Shown: in pieces, positions 1-9,271 of the stretch
Layout of the letters: each line of letters begins with the position of its first letter
Position numbering within the stretch: the stretch's first letter is position 1
DNA from: Rhodothermia bacterium
GTDB taxonomy: Bacteria > Bacteroidota > Rhodothermia > Balneolales > Balneolaceae
Direction: 5' to 3'
NCBI GenBank assembly: GCA_030427885.1
Contig: JAUICM010000002.1
Location: 248,001-312,000 of the forward strand
DNA: 64,000 nt
The notes under the pieces: model-generated
Told to the model about the DNA's origin: nothing
What the model saw: only the letters and a program-made list of their open reading frames with translations
The model's database searches: none
Program-made: the position numbers and the translations under genes

Positions 1-3000
1 TGGAGCTAAAAATTCATCTAAATCTTCTGTATCAAGTTCTTGCAGCTTAGAAAAAGCATGTGGAAGATTCCTTTGAAGTTCGAAATACACACTCGAAATA
101 ATCGCAAAAGCAACCTTTTCACGTGCTCTTTTACGGACCCCAACATTTTCAGATATCAAATCAATGGAATTTGCTTGAATTGCTTTCCCTAAAATTGGAT
201 CAATTAGCTGTAGTTGTGACACTATGGTTTCAATAATTTTTGGCAATCCATGAAGTTCATCACGCAGTATCAATCTGAGCATAGAAATATTAATGGGAAC
301 TTCATAAGTATCATCATCTGGAGCTCTAAATTCTTTAGGCTTTAGCCGATTCCAATTACAAAAGACCCTTAGGTCACCAGTCAAAAATCTCCCATATTCT
401 GGACTTCCTTTTAAAATGTCTTCAAATATTCCAATAACGAATAACTCCAATTCATCTTCTGGTATTTGATCCTTGGCTTTTTTACTCCCATCATCAAACC
501 AGTATACTTCATCTAATTTAAATTCATGTGGAAACAAGGACACGTGTCCAAGACACCTACGTAGTAAAGGATTAAAATGCTTTATTAGCTTGTCATGTAA
601 CAAAGGTCTAATCAATACTCCGAGCCTTTTAGTAATCGTAAGTTTAATCTGTTCATCTATACTTTGCACCTCTTTTGAAGTCCTTAACCTACCATTATCT
701 TTATCATTATAACTTCTCAATCGAACCACATTTAGTACAATAAAATCCTCAATTGCTAAAACTGCTCTCTCAAGATTGTCTCCTTTTTCAAATTTCAATA
801 AAGACTCTGAGAACCAATCTAATGCCCCCTTTACACGCACTTGATAATCACCATCATCCTTTTGAACACCTGCCCTATTTAACATTCCAAAGTCAACTAT
901 TTCATGTAAAATACTGACCCAAAATGAGGCCATTTTATCTTTCATCTCATCTCGACGTCTGTCTACATACTGCATCAGCATGGAAAGAATATCATCTATA
1001 AATTTTATCCTTTCATCAAACGGCATTCGAGTATCTTTTAGAAGTATACTTGCTATTACTCCAGGCACTACTCTTGCTAAAAACAATCTTTGTTGAGGTC
1101 TATAATCAACCTTGGATTCACTATCATAATTTTCATCTATCAGATGCCCTTCTAAAGTAGATAGAAAAGCTTTGTATTTTGGTAGTACAGGGTTGTATCG
1201 AAAATTGTTAAGAAGATAATTTACAGCCAACAGGAAATTTAGTGGTCGATAACCTAATTCAACTAACCTGTACCCCGCTTCAATAAATTCAGAATCCTCT
1301 TTTGTATCTGCGTCTCCTTGAATTATTTCTAAGATATTTTCAGTTGTTAAAAAATCTACCGAAGAATATTCCTTATTTAACTGCGAGAACTCTTCACGAA
1401 GCTCATCAAATGGAAGAGGGTGATTAAACGGCCAAAGTAAATAGCCAATTACCCTATCATCAGTCCATAAATTCAGCTCTTTTGATTTTGCCAATTCTAA
1501 CAAACTTAGAGCCTGAGTGTTTGAGGATCTAAAGAAGAATGAATCTCTACTCGGAACTTCGATATCAGTTAAAACTTCAATGATATCTTCACTAACCAAA
1601 TTCTCAAGTTCGGATAGCTGATTTGAAGCCAATAATTTCATTCGCATCTCATTTTCAATGAGTGTAGCCTCCTTTATTAAATGTGCACTTCCAAATGGGC
1701 CGAGATGAATTTTCGGCCAAGGAGTTTCATTTTTGATCCAAGCTCTGTTTGCTACTGTTAATAAACCAGTCGCATTCCAGTGTTCGATTGAGAAAGCAGA
1801 GAAGACTACATTCTTAGGTAGTTCAACAGGGTCCGTGTTTCTCCAGCCTTCAAATCGTGAATTCTTGTTAGCTGCCAAATCTGCTTCATTCTCACCAATC
1901 AAACCATGATCTACTAACGATCGCAACAACTGTTTTGAAGATGTTAATGCTGATAATACTTCACTCTCTCCTTCCATGCCGTCGATTTTGTCTAAAATAA
2001 AACAGGCCTGATCTAATGAAAGTGATAAACCTAAATCAGAAACATGATTACCCAGTACCTCATGCAATTCTTGAGGCACCTCTGAAGAGTATTTATTCCA
2101 AAGATCTGCTGAATATTCTTGAATTACTGCATTGTCATTAAGCAAATTGAATAATTCATCGTAAGGGTACTTCTTGATTTCAAATAATACTTCTTCCTGT
2201 CGGGTGACAGCTCTTCTTAAATTCCGCAATTCTTTAGTTCTAAGAAAAAGGTTGTACCCTAAATCTTTTAGTTCTCTAATTATTCGATCTGTTTTAGAAA
2301 GGACACAGAGAGTGAGTAGCGCAGTTAAATCTAACAAAATCCCCTTTTCCCAACTCTCAAACTTGTGAATATAAGGCCACGGAGATTTGATTGAATGAGA
2401 AAAGCTATTCTTATAATAAATTTCGTCTGCTGCAGATGTCCAACCAATCCATTGTCTCCAAGGTTGACCATTTCTGGCAAAGGTATCTACATATGTCATC
2501 AGGTCATTCCGATGAAATGTGTTTAGAGCAGAAGTGAATTCGCTATTCCATTCGACAAATGCTTTAATACCCTCTTTTCCTCCCAGGTCCATTCTTACAG
2601 ACCCACCTGAGGCCAGTTCGTTTAATTGTTCAAAGTCACCTTTTTTGGTAACAGACATCGAAGGAATTGTTGCCCAATGCTTTGAAAAATATCGTTGTGC
2701 AACATTCTGTTTGCCTGCTAATCCAGCTGCCCTACCCATATGAAGGTATAGGAAGGAACTTGTCAACCCTGCCTTAAGCCTATAAGCCTTTGATAATAAA
2801 TTAAACGCCTTTCGACCTTCTTCGGGGGTTACATTTTCTCTAAATGTAATTGCCACTGCTAAGTTTGCGTTCAAATAAGGATCATCAGGAAATCTCTCTA
2901 TCCACTTATTTAGAATAGTATAGGCATCTGTACCTTTATTGTAATTCAAATAATATGTCGCTGCCTCATTTATATATCTTGGATCATTAGTTAAATCTGC

Positions 3001-5061
3001 AAGTTCTTCAAAAATTTGCGGGACCTCATTTACTCTTTCAGTCTCAATGAGACAATGTGCTATATATCTTAATGAGCTAATGTAAACCTTAGTTTCTGAG
3101 GATACTTCTTTGAGAACTTGGAAGGCATTATTAAAGTCTTTATCGGCTATTAGTGCTTCTGCATAAAGGATTTGGTTGGCATCCGTCGGTAGAAGCCTGT
3201 TAAGAATATTCACACTTTGATTTATCTCATCTAATAACTCTTGATTATTTTTTGCTGGTTCTTCCTCTCTTTTCTTTTTGATTTCATCAATTAATAAATC
3301 AATGTAGTAGCGCCTAAATTGTATACTTAATGGAAACTGACTAACAAGGACTTTTAATCTTTCGAATAAACTTTCAATACCTTTTTTTCTCTCAAGAATA
3401 CCAAGTTCAATCAGTGCTTTTGAGTGTTCATTTATTTCAGATAATCGCTGTAAAACCCTTTCTGCTTTATCTAAGTGTCCTTCTTGTATATAAAAATTAA
3501 TTAAGGACTGACCAGTTACATATTTTTCTTCTTTTGTTGATAGTTCAAAAGCAGCTTGAAAAAAGTGCTCAATGGATTCGAACTCCGCTTTTTCTGAGCC
3601 TTTCATTAACGAAACCGCATTGTTGTGTAGTTCAAGTGCTTTGGAAACTACACCCCTCTTAATTTCAAATTGATAGACTGCCTCATCATCTTCATTCAAT
3701 TCTTTAATAGCAATTTCTGTAGCCCGTATTGCCTCTTTCTCTTCAAGCATTGAATAAAACTTTAGCGCACTATCTAATAAGATTACAAGCCCTCTACGAT
3801 AGTTTACTTTTTTGCAAGAGGTGATTGCTGAATCAATATATTCACGTGTTTTTATGACTAATTCTGATCTATCAAGTTTTGGTGTTTCAATCATTCCAAA
3901 ACTTATTCTTCTTAGAAAATGAATCGCTATGTTTGCGATTTGTATCTTATGCAAAGGTTGGTCACCTGTAAACTCTTTGGCCCTAAAAATTTCTTGCTGA
4001 AATTCTATTGCTTCTTGTGATAGAGTGACATCATCATAATTCTCAATTCTTCCCAACAACCCTAAATAAATAATCCTAAAGTTATCGGTCTCATTATTTA
4101 TCCTTTTTAAGAGTTCTCCCCATTGGCTTTTGAGCATTAAAAGTTCCATTTCTGCTATTTCTAACTCTGTAAGTTCCCCTTCCTTCACAAGTGATTCGAA
4201 CTCAGATATTTTATTCAGGTTAAGTAAAACTTTCGATTCTAACCTCTTCAGCGATGGAGTTACAATTCCTTTGTTTTTAGCATCTAAATAATTCTCTTGG
4301 GCTTTGTGGAACTCACCTAAATTTGAATATAGAGATGCAAGTTTTAGTAATAATTCTACATGATGATCTCTAAATATTACCTCTGAAGAGGGGTTTGCCA
4401 CATAAATTTCATTCAGTTTATTTAATCTTGATTCTATTTCTCTTTGAGCGTCATGGAAAGCTCCCCTATCTAAAGATTGTTTAATTGAATTCCAGTCTTG
4501 TGTTGCAGAAAGAAATTCTTCTATTGCTTTTTTCTGAGGTTCATTATGAAAATTCAAGCTACCTATTAGATCAGTGATAGTGTCTTTATATTCATTGAAC
4601 TCACTCTCTAACTTTTCAATTATTTCTTCCTTCCCCTTTTTTATTTCATCCGACTGTTTATCAAAGCTCATTAATATGCGATTCGACAAAAGTACTGGTC
4701 CGTTAGGAGATTTAAGAAGCCCTTCGTTAATCTGTTTAAACAAATAGGCCAAGACTTCTTGGGCTTTTTTTTCTAATTGTGGAATACTTATAAATGATTC
4801 AACAGCTCTTGATACAATGAGTTCAACAGATTCCCCATTTTCTAATGCCTTAATAAAGCTGCTAAAGTACTTTGACTTGATCCATATTGTTAAATAATCT
4901 TTATACGCTTCTCTTCTTACAGTTGAGCTACTGAACTTTTTTGCAGTTTTGTTAGTAGCTCTCCAAAGAATTAGCTTTCCTCTTTTGGCATTTAATAGAG
5001 CACTTGCACCTTTCTCTCCTAAGGTGAGACTCAGAGCTACTGCAACATCGATTAGTGGCAT
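1..5061 (-). CDS. Giant TPR-repeat protein with PIN-nuclease-like segment (3' end outside window)
   Basis: The minus-strand frame stays open from an ATG at 5061 to the window edge, giving 1687 codons with no stop seen. The N-terminus begins MPLIDVAVALSLTLGEKG. Much of the first 900 residues reads as helical-hairpin repeats of TPR type, for example around residues 233-262 (LASLYSNLGEFHKAQENY), 508-556 and 690-735. Around residue 908 comes LLDLTALLTL with Asp911, and near 1198 LWTDDRVIG with Asp1201 and Asp1202. These two motifs resemble the first and last acidic motifs of a PIN-fold ribonuclease. The arrangement recalls the TPR-GreAB-C-PIN proteins proposed as bacterial conflict systems, but no clear GreAB-C domain can be seen. 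The rest, to residue 1687, is helical and unrecognised. It follows two replication-type HTH genes on the same strand by 99 bp. The open frame is certain; the nuclease assignment is an inference. Confidence 0.72.
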   Translation of the reverse strand, partial: MPLIDVAVALSLTLGEKGASALLNAKRGKLILWRATNKTAKKFSSSTVRREAYKDYLTIWIKSKYFSSFIKALENGESVELIVSRAVESFISIPQLEKKAQEVLAYLFKQINEGLLKSPNGPVLLSNRILMSFDKQSDEIKKGKEEIIEKLESEFNEYKDTITDLIGSLNFHNEPQKKAIEEFLSATQDWNSIKQSLDRGAFHDAQREIESRLNKLNEIYVANPSSEVIFRDHHVELLLKLASLYSNLGEFHKAQENYLDAKNKGIVTPSLKRLESKVLLNLNKISEFESLVKEGELTELEIAEMELLMLKSQWGELLKRINNETDNFRIIYLGLLGRIENYDDVTLSQEAIEFQQEIFRAKEFTGDQPLHKIQIANIAIHFLRRISFGMIETPKLDRSELVIKTREYIDSAITSCKKVNYRRGLVILLDSALKFYSMLEEKEAIRATEIAIKELNEDDEAVYQFEIKRGVVSKALELHNNAVSLMKGSEKAEFESIEHFFQAAFELSTKEEKYVTGQSLINFYIQEGHLDKAERVLQRLSEINEHSKALIELGILERKKGIESLFERLKVLVSQFPLSIQFRRYYIDLLIDEIKKKREEEPAKNNQELLDEINQSVNILNRLLPTDANQILYAEALIADKDFNNAFQVLKEVSSETKVYISSLRYIAHCLIETERVNEVPQIFEELADLTNDPRYINEAATYYLNYNKGTDAYTILNKWIERFPDDPYLNANLAVAITFRENVTPEEGRKAFNLLSKAYRLKAGLTSSFLYLHMGRAAGLAGKQNVAQRYFSKHWATIPSMSVTKKGDFEQLNELASGGSVRMDLGGKEGIKAFVEWNSEFTSALNTFHRNDLMTYVDTFARNGQPWRQWIGWTSAADEIYYKNSFSHSIKSPWPYIHKFESWEKGILLDLTALLTLCVLSKTDRIIRELKDLGYNLFLRTKELRNLRRAVTRQEEVLFEIKKYPYDELFNLLNDNAVIQEYSADLWNKYSSEVPQELHEVLGNHVSDLGLSLSLDQACFILDKIDGMEGESEVLSALTSSKQLLRSLVDHGLIGENEADLAANKNSRFEGWRNTDPVELPKNVVFSAFSIEHWNATGLLTVANRAWIKNETPWPKIHLGPFGSAHLIKEATLIENEMRMKLLASNQLSELENLVSEDIIEVLTDIEVPSRDSFFFRSSNTQALSLLELAKSKELNLWTDDRVIGYLLWPFNHPLPFDELREEFSQLNKEYSSVDFLTTENILEIIQGDADTKEDSEFIEAGYRLVELGYRPLNFLLAVNYLLNNFRYNPVLPKYKAFLSTLEGHLIDENYDSESKVDYRPQQRLFLARVVPGVIASILLKDTRMPFDERIKFIDDILSMLMQYVDRRRDEMKDKMASFWVSILHEIVDFGMLNRAGVQKDDGDYQVRVKGALDWFSESLLKFEKGDNLERAVLAIEDFIVLNVVRLRSYNDKDNGRLRTSKEVQSIDEQIKLTITKRLGVLIRPLLHDKLIKHFNPLLRRCLGHVSLFPHEFKLDEVYWFDDGSKKAKDQIPEDELELFVIGIFEDILKGSPEYGRFLTGDLRVFCNWNRLKPKEFRAPDDDTYEVPINISMLRLILRDELHGLPKIIETIVSQLQLIDPILGKAIQANSIDLISENVGVRKRAREKVAFAIISSVYFELQRNLPHAFSKLQELDTEDLDEFLAP

Positions 5062-5160: not shown

Positions 5161-6006
5161 TCACTTTAGATACTCTCTCATTGGATATCCATCTTTATCC
5201 CACTTACCCTCACAAATTTTAAAATCACTTTCGTCGTATCCTTTATTGAATTTCAAATCTAACATTTCTGAATAAGTATAGAGTCTTTTCGGTACTCGAT
5301 TCAAATCTGTTCTTATAGTATCCGGGTAATGAAAAAAGCTTTTAGGGTTATTTAACAAATACGGTTTTCTATCCCGGTAGTAATCTGCTTCCAACCTATT
5401 CTCCATTGCCTTGATGATTTCATCTACAGAAAATTCATTTATGGATTCATGGATTTTCTTGCAAAGATTACTGTCTCCGTAATTGACTTTTTGAGTAAAT
5501 TTATTATTCCAGGCTTCAACTACTTTTACAAATGAATCATCAAAATTAAAATCACTACTAGTAGTAGTTTCTTTAGGTTTATTTTGATCTTTCTTTTGAG
5601 TGTCTACTTTTTGGACTAGTTGCCGGTCTGAATTTTGAACTGGTTGTGGTTCAATCATCAAACCAGGATTTGATTCTTGGACCGCTCCTTTTTCGGGCAT
5701 CAGCTTTGAAAAATTCAATCCGTACTTATTGGTACTGCTGGTTCTTTCTTTAATTATTAAATGACGTTTTTCCAGATTCTTAAGAGCTTTGGTTATAGTT
5801 GATCTAGAACACCCAGTTATCTCTTGGAATGTAGAAAGCGCTATGCCATCCTTGGATTTACCAAAGCCTAATGTCTTTCTACAAATAGCTACAATCGTTA
5901 GTAATTCAGCTCCACTTAAATTTTTCATATGATTATCTAGAATCATATTGGGAAGCTTAGTAAATCCCAGCTTATTAATTATGGCATTAAGTTCTTTTCT
6001 ACTCAT
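5161..6006 (-). CDS. Winged-helix replication-initiator-like protein (phage O/DnaD type)
   Basis: A 281-aa protein. Residues about 13-100 form a winged helix resembling the N-terminal domain of phage replication protein O: a FTKLPNMILDN start, then a recognition-helix region STFQEITGCSRSTITKAL and a wing ending KERTSSTNKYGLNFSKL. A Gln/Lys-rich linker (about 105-150) leads to a C-terminal helical region with a WNNKF motif near 170. This suggests a DNA-binding protein acting in element replication or its control, although no helicase or primase gene is visible. Its ATG overlaps the stop of the upstream HTH gene by 4 bp, so the two are probably translationally coupled. The two proteins share the same overall plan, as if tandemly duplicated. 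Confidence 0.6.
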   Translation of the reverse strand: MSRKELNAIINKLGFTKLPNMILDNHMKNLSGAELLTIVAICRKTLGFGKSKDGIALSTFQEITGCSRSTITKALKNLEKRHLIIKERTSSTNKYGLNFSKLMPEKGAVQESNPGLMIEPQPVQNSDRQLVQKVDTQKKDQNKPKETTTSSDFNFDDSFVKVVEAWNNKFTQKVNYGDSNLCKKIHESINEFSVDEIIKAMENRLEADYYRDRKPYLLNNPKSFFHYPDTIRTDLNRVPKRLYTYSEMLDLKFNKGYDESDFKICEGKWDKDGYPMREYLK

Positions 6007-6611
6007 TCGTGCACCCCAAATAGTTCTTTAAGATCTTCTTCTGTATACGACAGATCTATATTTTCATTATTTATATACCCTTGTAATGCTTTTAGAGCTT
6101 TTTCTCCCGAAACGGAGTTCATGAATGTTTGAACACATTTTTTATGCAGTTCATTAGCTGGATTCAGATAAATTGACATGTACTTATTCCACAGTTGGAA
6201 TAAATTCCCCTCACCTGGTGTAATTCCTATCCTTCTACGATTTACTTCTTCTACTACCACCCTGCTATTTATTACACTCTTGCAGGCTTTCTCTTCCTCA
6301 GATTGTATCAATGAGATTTTTAGTATCTCAAGTCTGTTAATTGAATATCTAAATGGCTTTTCGTTTTCATTTACTTCAATCAGGCTTAGACTCCTTAATC
6401 TTTTAAGTCCGATAACTAATGTTTTTCTGGAAAGTCCTGTAATAAAACCAAGATCATCTATACTTAGGGGTACGGAATTCAAATTCTTTCCAACTGTCAA
6501 GTGGTTTATCAGTAGCATTAACTTCAGTTCAGAATTATTCAACTTGGGTAAGTTGAATACAAGAGTATCTAGGACTCTTTCATAGAATGTTTTCACTTCA
6601 GATTCTTGCAT
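6003..6611 (-). CDS. Winged-helix DNA-binding protein, paralogue-like to its downstream neighbour
   Basis: A 202-aa protein with a winged-helix segment at about residues 20-95 (SIDDLGFITGLSRKTLVIGL, followed by a wing FRYSINRLE). The C-terminal half contains LWNKYMSIYL and a helix-rich tail, matching the WN-plus-helices plan of the next gene. It is likely a DNA-binding replication or regulatory protein of the integrative element; no enzymatic motif is visible. It starts 4 bp after the stop of the small HTH gene and overlaps the next gene by 4 bp, so three genes form a tight operon. Composition is AT-rich like the rest of the region. Confidence 0.55.
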   Translation of the reverse strand: MQESEVKTFYERVLDTLVFNLPKLNNSELKLMLLINHLTVGKNLNSVPLSIDDLGFITGLSRKTLVIGLKRLRSLSLIEVNENEKPFRYSINRLEILKISLIQSEEEKACKSVINSRVVVEEVNRRRIGITPGEGNLFQLWNKYMSIYLNPANELHKKCVQTFMNSVSGEKALKALQGYINNENIDLSYTEEDLKELFGVHE

Positions 6612-6615
6612 AGTG

Positions 6616-6873
6616 TTACCTCAGGTGAAACATTCGTTCAATAACAGTTCTTTCGAAGTACTTTCTTCTACTTCCGCCAAACCTAATTGATGGGATATAT
6701 CTGGGATTGTCTTTCTCCAAGTTTGATCTGTTTAAAATGGTTCTATGATCTAAGCCTGTCAGATCCTGAACTTCTTTTGCTGAGATATACTTCTTTGCAT
6801 TTATTCGGTGGGCTGATGAATTGAGCAACAGATCAAGTTTACTCTCAATTCGTTCTAAGGTTGTTTCACTCAT
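6616..6873 (-). CDS. Small excisionase-like HTH protein
   Basis: An 85-aa basic protein. After a short coiled N-terminus (ERIESKLDLLLNS) it has an HTH region, KYISAKEVQDLTGLDHRTIL, followed by a wing-like segment ending IRFGGSRRKYFERTVIERMF. This layout is typical of MerR-like or excisionase-like helix-turn-helix proteins encoded beside tyrosine integrases. It is the first gene of the minus-strand operon that continues into the two winged-helix genes. A 201-bp AT-rich gap separates it from the integrase transcription unit and probably holds its promoter. Likely role: directionality factor or regulator of the element (inference). Confidence 0.6.
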   Translation of the reverse strand: MSETTLERIESKLDLLLNSSAHRINAKKYISAKEVQDLTGLDHRTILNRSNLEKDNPRYIPSIRFGGSRRKYFERTVIERMFHLR

Positions 6874-7074: not shown

Positions 7075-7806
7075 TTAATTCTTAGTGTACTTTTCATTTT
7101 CGTGGTTTATCCATGAGTTTACTCTGTTGTTAATCGTGCTTCTTTCATCAATTATCATTCCACCTTCATTAATCACTACACTCTCTTTTATCCATTTCTT
7201 TAGCTTCTTCCTATCAAATGAATTTTCAATATTATTCTTATAGTACTCACAAGCTTTTGGTACGGATTCGAATTCGAAAATCCTTTTGTAAACTCCATCC
7301 AAGAGTACGTCTCGTTGAACCTCATCAAAAACCTCTCTTTTTATTATTGCTTTTCCAAGCTTTTCAAATAATTTTATTATCCGTTTAATGTATTGATCTG
7401 ACATTGAACATAATATTAGACTCCCCTCTTCTTCCTGATTTTTAATCAATGAAAGGTTTCCAAATATTTCGTCCAGATTCTTTTTAATATTCTTTTCGAG
7501 AGTAACAGTACGATATAATTTCCCTTCGTAGTTTCTAAACGAAAACAGAATCTCATTTTTTAGTGATTTAATTAAATCATCTAAGACCTTTTTCTTTGCT
7601 TTAAATTTTTCTGACAGAATATCCTCTTCATTTGCTTTTAAATATTCTTTGCGCTCTTTATTCTTAGTCTCTAAAACTAATTCCATCTCATTAAGAATGT
7701 ACATTGTAACATTGAACAAAGGTGGTTGATAATCCAACCTTCTATTCATTTCGAATAGTGAATAAGTAATATTCACTATAAGACTAATATTGCTTTCATT
7801 TTTCAT
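7075..7806 (-). CDS. Unknown protein translationally coupled to the integrase
   Basis: A 243-aa, Lys/Glu-rich, probably cytoplasmic helical protein that I do not recognise. No signal peptide, membrane segment or catalytic motif is obvious. Residues about 50-85 (KNKERKEYLKANEEDIL and the following Lys-rich stretch) have coiled-coil character. Its ATG overlaps the integrase stop codon by 4 bp, so the two are co-translated and may act together, for example as an integrase accessory or regulatory factor. Downstream (7045-7070) the minus strand has a weak TCCT/AGGA hairpin followed by a T-run, a possible terminator. Confidence 0.5.
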   Translation of the reverse strand: MKNESNISLIVNITYSLFEMNRRLDYQPPLFNVTMYILNEMELVLETKNKERKEYLKANEEDILSEKFKAKKKVLDDLIKSLKNEILFSFRNYEGKLYRTVTLEKNIKKNLDEIFGNLSLIKNQEEEGSLILCSMSDQYIKRIIKLFEKLGKAIIKREVFDEVQRDVLLDGVYKRIFEFESVPKACEYYKNNIENSFDRKKLKKWIKESVVINEGGMIIDERSTINNRVNSWINHENEKYTKN

Positions 7807-8981
7807 TCGTCTATTCCTTTTATCGCATCAGAAATATTCTTTGTATCCAAATGTTCATAGATCATAGTTGTATTTATTGAAGCATGACCCATTATTTTTT
7901 GGACCATTACTGCAGGAACTCCCTTTGCTAATAAATCAGTAGCACAAGAATGTCTTAATCCATGTAGAGTAACGGTATCAGGAACTTCAGGTGCTAGCTT
8001 TACAAATTTCTTAAATGATTTCGACAAAGCTAACGAATCCATTTGATGCCATTCATCAAGTCCGGTAGCACTTGGAAACACATATCCATCATTCGGCTTA
8101 CCTTGATCCAGATACCATTTGTGAATATGCGGAAATAAAGGTTTTCGAATTGGTATGATTCTTTCTTTTCCAGATTTGGTTGTATTGGTATCTGAGTTAG
8201 TAATCTTAATTACTCCAAAATCATCACTGCTATCTTTTTGTTCGGAGAAGAAAACATCTTTCCATGTTAGATTTACTGCTTCTTTAGCCCTTAGTCCACA
8301 ATAATAAATCAGATTAATCATAGGTTTAAACCATAGTCTCTCCTGTTCTGGTTTTGTAATAAACCTTTTCTTCTTCATTTCTTTTAAGTGCTTATCAAAT
8401 GCTTCAAAAACTTGTTCCAGTTCATTTCTGCTAACGGTTTTTTGAGTGATCTTTTGTGGAATACGTGGAGCTTTAATATTCTCTGTAATATCGGTTCTTA
8501 AAATATGAGTTTCTTCCAACCAGCTGAAGAAAACTTTTAAGTGCCTCAAATAACTTACCTGAGTTGCTGGTGCTAAATCCGATCTAAAACAAAAGGACCT
8601 AATATCGGATTCCAGGATCTCGGTCACAGGCATCGTTCTTCCTAACTGATCCATCAGCATATCAAGATGCTTTCTGTAATTCTTTTTAGTTCTCTTGTTG
8701 GCCTGACTTCGTTGATCTATAAATTGTTTAGAAGCTTCTTCTAAAGGAACATATTTTCCAACCAGGCTTTGCCTTTTTCTATCTGCTTCTAATTTTGGGG
8801 TCCAGCCATTGAAGGGATCAATTTCCCCTCGTTCGAACTTTTCTTCATACTCTATTAAAAGTTTTTCAGCTTCTCTTTTTTGGGTTGTTCCTAAACTCAG
8901 ACTCTTTCTCTTTCTTTTATTCCCTACCGTTCTAGAGAATCTGATATAATAGAGATTCCCTCTTTTCTTCAAACCAGCCAT
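7803..8981 (-). CDS. int: Tyrosine recombinase (phage-type integrase)
   Basis: A 392-aa site-specific recombinase. The N-terminal ~60 residues (GNLYYIRFSRTVGNKRKRKS) look like an Arm-type DNA-binding domain, followed by a SAM-like core-binding domain (about 85-175). The catalytic domain has Arg in YYCGLRAKEAVNL, the HxxR box in LHGLRHSCATDLL, and the His and nucleophilic Tyr in IMGHASINTTMIYEHLD. The catalytic set appears intact. It lies with its 5' end about 217 bp from the 3' end of a tRNA gene, the usual position for integration into tRNA. It is followed by a coupled unknown gene. It probably catalyses integration and excision of the AT-rich element to its left. Confidence 0.93.
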   Translation of the reverse strand: MAGLKKRGNLYYIRFSRTVGNKRKRKSLSLGTTQKREAEKLLIEYEEKFERGEIDPFNGWTPKLEADRKRQSLVGKYVPLEEASKQFIDQRSQANKRTKKNYRKHLDMLMDQLGRTMPVTEILESDIRSFCFRSDLAPATQVSYLRHLKVFFSWLEETHILRTDITENIKAPRIPQKITQKTVSRNELEQVFEAFDKHLKEMKKKRFITKPEQERLWFKPMINLIYYCGLRAKEAVNLTWKDVFFSEQKDSSDDFGVIKITNSDTNTTKSGKERIIPIRKPLFPHIHKWYLDQGKPNDGYVFPSATGLDEWHQMDSLALSKSFKKFVKLAPEVPDTVTLHGLRHSCATDLLAKGVPAVMVQKIMGHASINTTMIYEHLDTKNISDAIKGIDE

Positions 8982-9180: not shown

Positions 9181-9197
9181 ACGCTGTTTTTAAAAAG

Positions 9198-9271
9198 TGG
9201 GCCCAGAGGGACTTGAACCCCCGACCAATCGATTATGAGTCGACTGCTCTAACCAACTGAGCTATGGGCCC
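9198..9271 (-). tRNA. tRNA with anticodon CAT, Ile2-like (k2C-modified) rather than Met
   Basis: Read on the minus strand, the gene folds as a full cloverleaf. The acceptor stem is GGGCCCA/TGGGCCC, the D-loop is AGTTGGTTA, the anticodon stem GTCGA/TCGAT carries loop CTCATAA, and the T-loop is TTCAAGT. The discriminator is A, and CCA is not encoded. The anticodon is CAT. The anticodon-arm and variable-loop context (GACTCATAATCG, TTGGTCG) resembles bacterial tRNA-Ile2 (lysidine-modified CAU) more than elongator Met. A tyrosine integrase lies at its 3' side, so the 3' half is a plausible attachment site. Confidence 0.9.

Follow-up and report, generated by a model that had tools for sequence, protein, structure and literature searches.

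The giant gene and its reading frame

What protein is encoded by the very long open frame that runs off the left edge of this Balneolaceae locus, and is it, as the original prediction had proposed, the defence or conflict payload of a mobile element? The frame occupies positions 1-5061 on the minus strand of the window (the whole 64,000-nucleotide stretch analysed, G000:C4:248001-312000; negative positions lie to its left on the same contig), where it is uninterrupted for 1687 codons and open at the window edge. Using the genome sequence left of the window, as had been suggested for recovering the C-terminus, we found that the frame ends at a stop at window -986, giving a full gene, P0002, of 2015 codons and a product of 2015 aa. 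The expectation of a frame of such length by chance is ~1e-57 at its own base composition, and differences from a Balneola homologue fall mostly at the third codon position (0.38/0.24/0.56 for positions 1/2/3). The continuous frame, foreseen as at least 1687 codons, is therefore confirmed as real and is longer still.

When the whole of P0002 was compared with Pfam, only TPR repeats were seen (PF14559, TPR_19; PF13428, TPR_14), which bears out the TPR-like hairpins read from the sequence earlier, and TPR_19 was present in all six family members scanned. Residues 1-190 contained no significant domain, neither an N-terminal EAD10 nor a variable effector. The C-terminal region beyond the PIN-like modules described below is conserved in relatives. 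The parts of the gene are as follows.

Window -986 to 5061 (L003:7014-13061; C4:247014-253061), minus strand: P0002, gene for the giant TPR/double-PIN-like protein; 1..5061 in the window, aa 1-1687 of 2015
2662..4374, minus strand: TPR and TPR-like helical repeats, ~aa 230-800 (Pfam TPR_19 E = 3.7e-10, TPR_14 E = 1.5e-8)
1846..2364, minus strand: PIN-like module 1, ~aa 900-1072, with GILLDLTALLTL (D911), D1009 and D1024, then the helix SSKQLLRSLVDHGLI (invariant Asp in eight proteins; the stretch of L034 where its PF20698 match starts aligns with the D911 motif)
1417..1824, minus strand: PIN-like module 2, ~aa 1080-1215, from VVFSAFSIEHW to LNLWTDDR (D1201-D1202) (W1199/D1201/D1202/R1203 invariant; PF20698 sub-threshold in L019; hhalign)

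Two acidic motifs, most likely in two successive modules

Asp911 and Asp1201-Asp1202 had been read as the two ends of one PIN ribonuclease domain. Both motifs are present, and D911, D1009, D1024, W1199, D1201, D1202 and R1203 are invariant in 8/8 aligned proteins; the usual Glu of the PIN acidic tetrad was not alignable as an invariant position. Their assignment to a single domain probably does not hold, as the 290-residue span misfits one compact PIN domain, D911 groups with D1009 and D1024, and D1201-D1202 close a second module. Each module opens with a hydrophobic strand (LLDLTALLTL in module 1, VVFSAFSIEHW in module 2), and the same helix pattern follows both (SSxxLLxSLxxxGxV after module 1, STxExLxQLxxxGxL after module 2). 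The first Asp of module 2 is replaced by Ser in P0002 and is lost in both Balneolaceae proteins, while the Rhodothermaceae module 2 starts VFDEYSILxW, with its own first-strand Asp. A profile comparison matched module 1 to module 2 (P 0.006; 0/100 shuffles as good). Given this layout and this match, the two original motifs are both real and, as read from the alignments, most likely belong to two different, successive PIN-like modules.

We then asked whether the central region is PIN at all. PF20698 (PIN-TPR-GreABC) was the only Pfam family to recur there, in 5/7 members, with a best E of 0.013 that is far below the cut-off. Isolated module 2 of the relative L019 gave E 0.011, also sub-threshold, and relatives overall lay between E 0.011 and 0.04. 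P0002 had no PF20698 match at the cut-off and no PIN match at any curated cut-off, and its isolated modules 1 and 2 gave no signal at all; likewise, PF20698 profile searches of 29 and 247 genomes did not recover P0002 and returned other proteins, one of them on the same contig as a relative. By hhalign, module 2 matched four PF20698-positive proteins with the DDR motif in register (P 0.003); module 1 gave no signal against the same four (P 0.22), and a HMMER comparison of the family profile with five PF20698-type proteins was not significant.

L034 is a bridging protein: PF20698 detects its first module (E 2e-5), and its parts are arranged as in P0002. The hhalign comparison with L034 and the similar L052 was collinear over both motifs (P 0.011, 0/100 shuffles), pairing D911 with ADLSALITL and LWTDDR with LLVDDR. 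The region preceding the first PIN of L034 weakly matches Pfam HTH_upst_double_PIN (PF24407, E 0.09), so Pfam apparently already includes a double-PIN arrangement. Two regions were modelled with AlphaFold, aa 795-1290 (7 sequences) and the Rhodothermaceae counterpart of aa 895-1240. Both models were of low confidence, with mean pLDDT of 56 and 62, and in the second the high-confidence stretch was confined to the last part of module 1 and the first part of module 2. Foldseek searches of the PDB with both low-confidence models returned no PIN fold and nothing usable. Taken together, individually weak signals that agree in register suggest that the central region is probably PIN.

A conserved operon with nuclease-type partners

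The giant gene starts an operon that continues left of the window.

Window -1905 to -979, minus strand: P0003, 308 aa, DUF3800-like (8-base overlap with P0002; hhalign)
Window -2406 to -1906, minus strand: P0004, 166 aa, GGCT/AIG2-like
Window -3267 to -2422, minus strand: P0005, 281 aa, Ymh/TIGR02391 HEPN with an RNPRAH motif (PF09509)

DUF3800 is an RNase H-like nuclease family. P0003 had no match in Pfam, PF12686 (DUF3800) included; by hhalign it matched DUF3800 members (P 0.001, 0/60 shuffles), with the acidic Asp and Glu motifs (DFRE, QEIxY) in register. The C-terminal Ymh/TIGR02391 domain of P0005 was detected by PF09509 at 1.6e-9 (38.1 bits against a cut-off of 25), and RNPRAH, a motif of the R-x4-6-H type, is kept in P0005 and its Balneola homologue. 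The Ymh family consists of HEPN RNases and has been linked to abortive infection (Abi) and restriction (PMC3710099).

At the Balneola locus the TPR, DUF3800-like and Ymh genes are kept and the GGCT gene is absent, so that the order TPR, DUF3800-like, Ymh/HEPN is common to two genera. The P0003 homologue there (L012:10661-11588) is broken by an in-frame stop, which may be either a sequencing error or real decay. In 4/6 Rhodothermaceae-type copies read, two small genes lie upstream of the giant gene instead of the Balneolaceae partners; this two-gene set (~270-300 and 143-179 aa) was found at L013:12953-14208, L014:8133-9388, L015:6571-7921 and L016:5938-7261, and its L013 representatives matched no Pfam family. 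A lone P0003 homologue (32% identity) was also observed at L049:12419-14841; nearby are an integrase-like gene and one whose product is VapC-type PIN-like (weak PF01850, E 0.12).

The carrier is an integrative element at tRNA-Met

To the right of the giant gene lie the recombination genes and one end of its carrier; the other end is far to the left.

5161..6006, minus strand: P0006, phage replication-protein-O-like HTH protein (PF04492 3e-14, TIGR01610 1.8e-12)
6003..6611, minus strand: P0007, HTH protein (weak HTH match only), by position an element replication or regulation gene
6616..6873, minus strand: P0008, 85 aa, excisionase- or helix-turn-helix-like by sequence reading, near the integrase; no Pfam match
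7075..7806, minus strand: P0009, 243 aa, no match in domain scans
7803..8981, minus strand: P0010, tyrosine recombinase (integrase; PF00589 3e-31)
9192..9240, plus strand: attR, 49-bp direct repeat within the tRNA-Met gene (repeat search)
9197-9271, minus strand: tRNA-Met gene, adjoining the integrase (tRNA call)
C4:226748-226796 (window -21252 to -21204): attL, the other 49-bp copy, at the far end of the element

The 49-bp repeat is a perfect copy of the tRNA-Met 3' half, and its 21-base core occurs at only these two sites in the genome. Because this repeat bounds both ends, the element measures ~30.5 kb; its GC content is 37%, against 43% in the flanks. With an integrase, a tRNA target and flanking direct repeats, what had been described as a mobile-looking region is an integrative element at tRNA-Met with located ends. 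A candidate end just left of the Ymh gene was rejected: no repeat occurs there, and the tRNA-Met repeat puts the boundary ~18 kb further left.

The same result overturned the impression that the element had no other cargo, which arose because most of it lies left of the window edge. That part carries much else, namely the DUF3800-like, GGCT-like and HEPN/Ymh genes, a secretion/pilus cluster and an Rhs/immunity pair. The cluster is T2SS/type IV pilus-like (C4:226897-244533, window ~-21100 to -3467; L002, L055), with T2SSE, secretin, PilN, PilO, pseudopilins, prepilin peptidase and T2SSF, and it surrounds an Rhs-repeat/Laminin-G protein of 2257 aa, after which comes a WapI-like immunity gene. 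Together, the Rhs/WapI-like genes and the pilus-like cluster may be a toxin-immunity set that is mobile and brings its own exporter.

Partial tRNA-Met copies of 45-47 bp were observed in three relatives (tRNA-Met loci G061:C7, G112:C1 and G405:C7), on the same contig as the intact gene and 41-86 kb from it, and the site has therefore probably been used repeatedly by elements. An empty site was not found in the close relative G077, in which the same permease gene stands on one side and tRNA-Met/menE on the other; between its tRNA-Met and permease genes lie ~17 kb of different content (G077:C2:278600-296000), possibly another insertion.

Relatives are sporadic and sit beside defence genes

Full-length relatives of P0002 were found in 5/394 genomes of the phylum, counting its own. 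The closest, in one Balneola genome (G293, record NZQV01000019.1), is 52% identical over its full length; the remote ones, in three Rhodothermaceae-type genomes, one of which has several copies, are 18-21% identical. A scan of genome contigs added two further Rhodothermales/Rhodothermaceae records, whereas plasmids (tblastn with the giant protein) and viral contigs yielded no relatives. Such sporadic presence, with several copies in one genome, is the pattern of a horizontally spread accessory gene.

None of the PADLOC models matched P0002 or P0003. Beside the relative at L016 lies a complete Gabija pair (GajA E 5e-242, GajB E 6e-203); beside that at L012, a type IIG restriction-methylation gene and a Fic gene with a SocA-like gene; and beside that at L014, a broken GmrSD-like gene with an HsdR-like gene. 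These neighbours are the strongest evidence for defence, and a defence role in general appears likely. The proposal that the giant gene is a defence or conflict payload is thus well supported as to setting; it is not, however, a lone payload, as it starts a conserved operon and shares its element with the secretion/Rhs cluster.

Proposed function and alternatives

Our main reading, to which we assign a probability of roughly 55%, is that the giant protein is the sensor or scaffold and an RNase component of an abortive-infection-type defence operon on the tRNA-Met-integrated element; its PIN fold, catalysis, trigger and phenotype are what we infer. The long TPR and helical arrays (aa 230-800 plus the helical C-terminus) would serve both to keep the protein switched off and to detect a signal of phage or of stress. 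Once the protein is activated, module 1 (D911, D1009, D1024) would cut RNA, and module 2, which is partly degenerate (W-x-D-D-R kept, first Asp lost), may be a regulatory or composite partner that regulates or completes the site. The presumably co-transcribed DUF3800-like protein and HEPN/Ymh RNase would supply further nuclease activity, and the infected cell would stop growing or die. Several results speak against this reading: the lack of a PIN match at a curated cut-off for P0002, the two low-confidence models in which Foldseek saw no PIN fold, the loss of the first Asp from module 2 in both Balneolaceae proteins, the different small partners of the Rhodothermaceae relatives and the lack of a PADLOC match for P0002 or P0003.

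Alternatively, the PIN-like modules might bind RNA or protein only, leaving the giant protein as a sensor and the HEPN/Ymh protein and DUF3800-like nuclease as the effectors. The absence of the first Asp from module 2, the seemingly complementary degeneration of the two modules and the retention of operon partners with predicted nuclease activity are all in keeping with this, yet D911, D1009 and D1024 are invariant across relatives only ~20% identical, which suggests selection on an acidic site, and we regard a purely binding role as rather unlikely. A different arrangement of that site is implied by the original prediction, in which D911 and D1201-D1202 would share one active site and the intervening stretch would be an insertion. 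PF20698 does match module 1 (in L034) with sequence of the start type and module 2 with sequence of the end type, and a PIN domain split inside a single polypeptide has been reported for DefensePredictor DS-3 (PMC13092281). We nevertheless consider a shared site very improbable: in D1009 and D1024 module 1 possesses further invariant acidic residues, the two modules match each other and run into the same helix pattern, and the Rhodothermaceae module 2 keeps a first-strand Asp of its own.

The operon might also work for the element and not against phages, by stabilising it, keeping out competing elements or regulating its transfer. It adjoins the element's replication and recombination genes, and no other maintenance system was recognised in the element parts read. 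However, relatives are not confined to this type of element and have phage-defence genes beside them, which makes service to the element improbable.

Comparison with known systems

TPR-GreA/B-C-PIN proteins, a conflict system proposed by comparative genomics, consist of an N-terminal effector or EAD10, TPR, GreA/B-C and a C-terminal PIN, and are mostly standalone (Kaur et al. 2021, PMC8195603); in the literature searched we found no paper testing one. P0002 resembles them (PF20698) as a large TPR protein with a PIN-type motif pair, in its rapid evolution, sporadic presence and conflict-type setting, and in its weak in-register profile matches. It differs in that no N-terminal effector or GreA/B-C domain was found, in that the PIN-like region is doubled and central (aa 900-1215 of 2015, with ~725-800 residues beyond), and in that the gene lies in an operon with conserved partners. 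Pfam GreA_GreB did not match aa 760-900 of P0002 or its relatives; the corresponding regions of PF20698-positive proteins, canonical members among them, gave no match either, so this negative says little about the domain. The likeness seen earlier to this group thus survives as a remote one, in the recurrence of PF20698 among members and the register of the Asp motifs, and not in the GreA/B-C domain, in a PF20698 score at the cut-off for P0002 itself or in a single, C-terminal PIN. Since the N-terminal effector, the C-terminal placement of PIN and a GreA/B-C domain were not seen, we do not file P0002 as a member; it is probably a distant variant that works similarly.

The abhydrolase-TPR-tandem-PIN proteins L034 and L052 (G071, G020; marginal PF24407 match) share with P0002 the succession of TPR, a helical block with R..H...MPW...W, PIN-like 1, helices, PIN-like 2 ending in VDDR, a helix and RYRF. 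Unlike P0002, they carry an N-terminal hydrolase and have a first PIN that PF20698 detects, and their pairwise similarity to it is very low. P0005 fits the HEPN/Ymh family (PF09509, TIGR02391; PMC3710099) in its above-cut-off match and R-x4-H motif; its N-terminal half (~180 aa), however, is outside the matched domain, and its partner is a giant protein, not an R-M gene. The carrier resembles other tRNA-integrating tyrosine-recombinase elements in its integrase beside a tRNA gene and in being bounded on both sides by a 49-bp copy of the tRNA 3' end; it differs in that its defence-like operon has a T2SS/type IV pilus-like cluster, with an Rhs protein, for a neighbour.

We tentatively suggest, at somewhat less than even odds, that these genes form a multi-RNase defence system not described before. 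In it, a TPR protein of ~2000 residues that has two PIN-like modules would act together with a DUF3800-like nuclease and a HEPN RNase; in at least one Balneolaceae case the carrier is a tRNA-integrating element, and a Rhodothermaceae branch would have two different small partners. TPR-GreA/B-C-PIN proteins were proposed from sequence alone, and a diverged version would separate the essential from the dispensable parts of that proposal; the features that would do so here are the internal PIN duplication, the lack of a recognisable RNA-polymerase-binding domain and the fixed nuclease partners. The compact three- or four-gene operon is a testable unit for phage protection.
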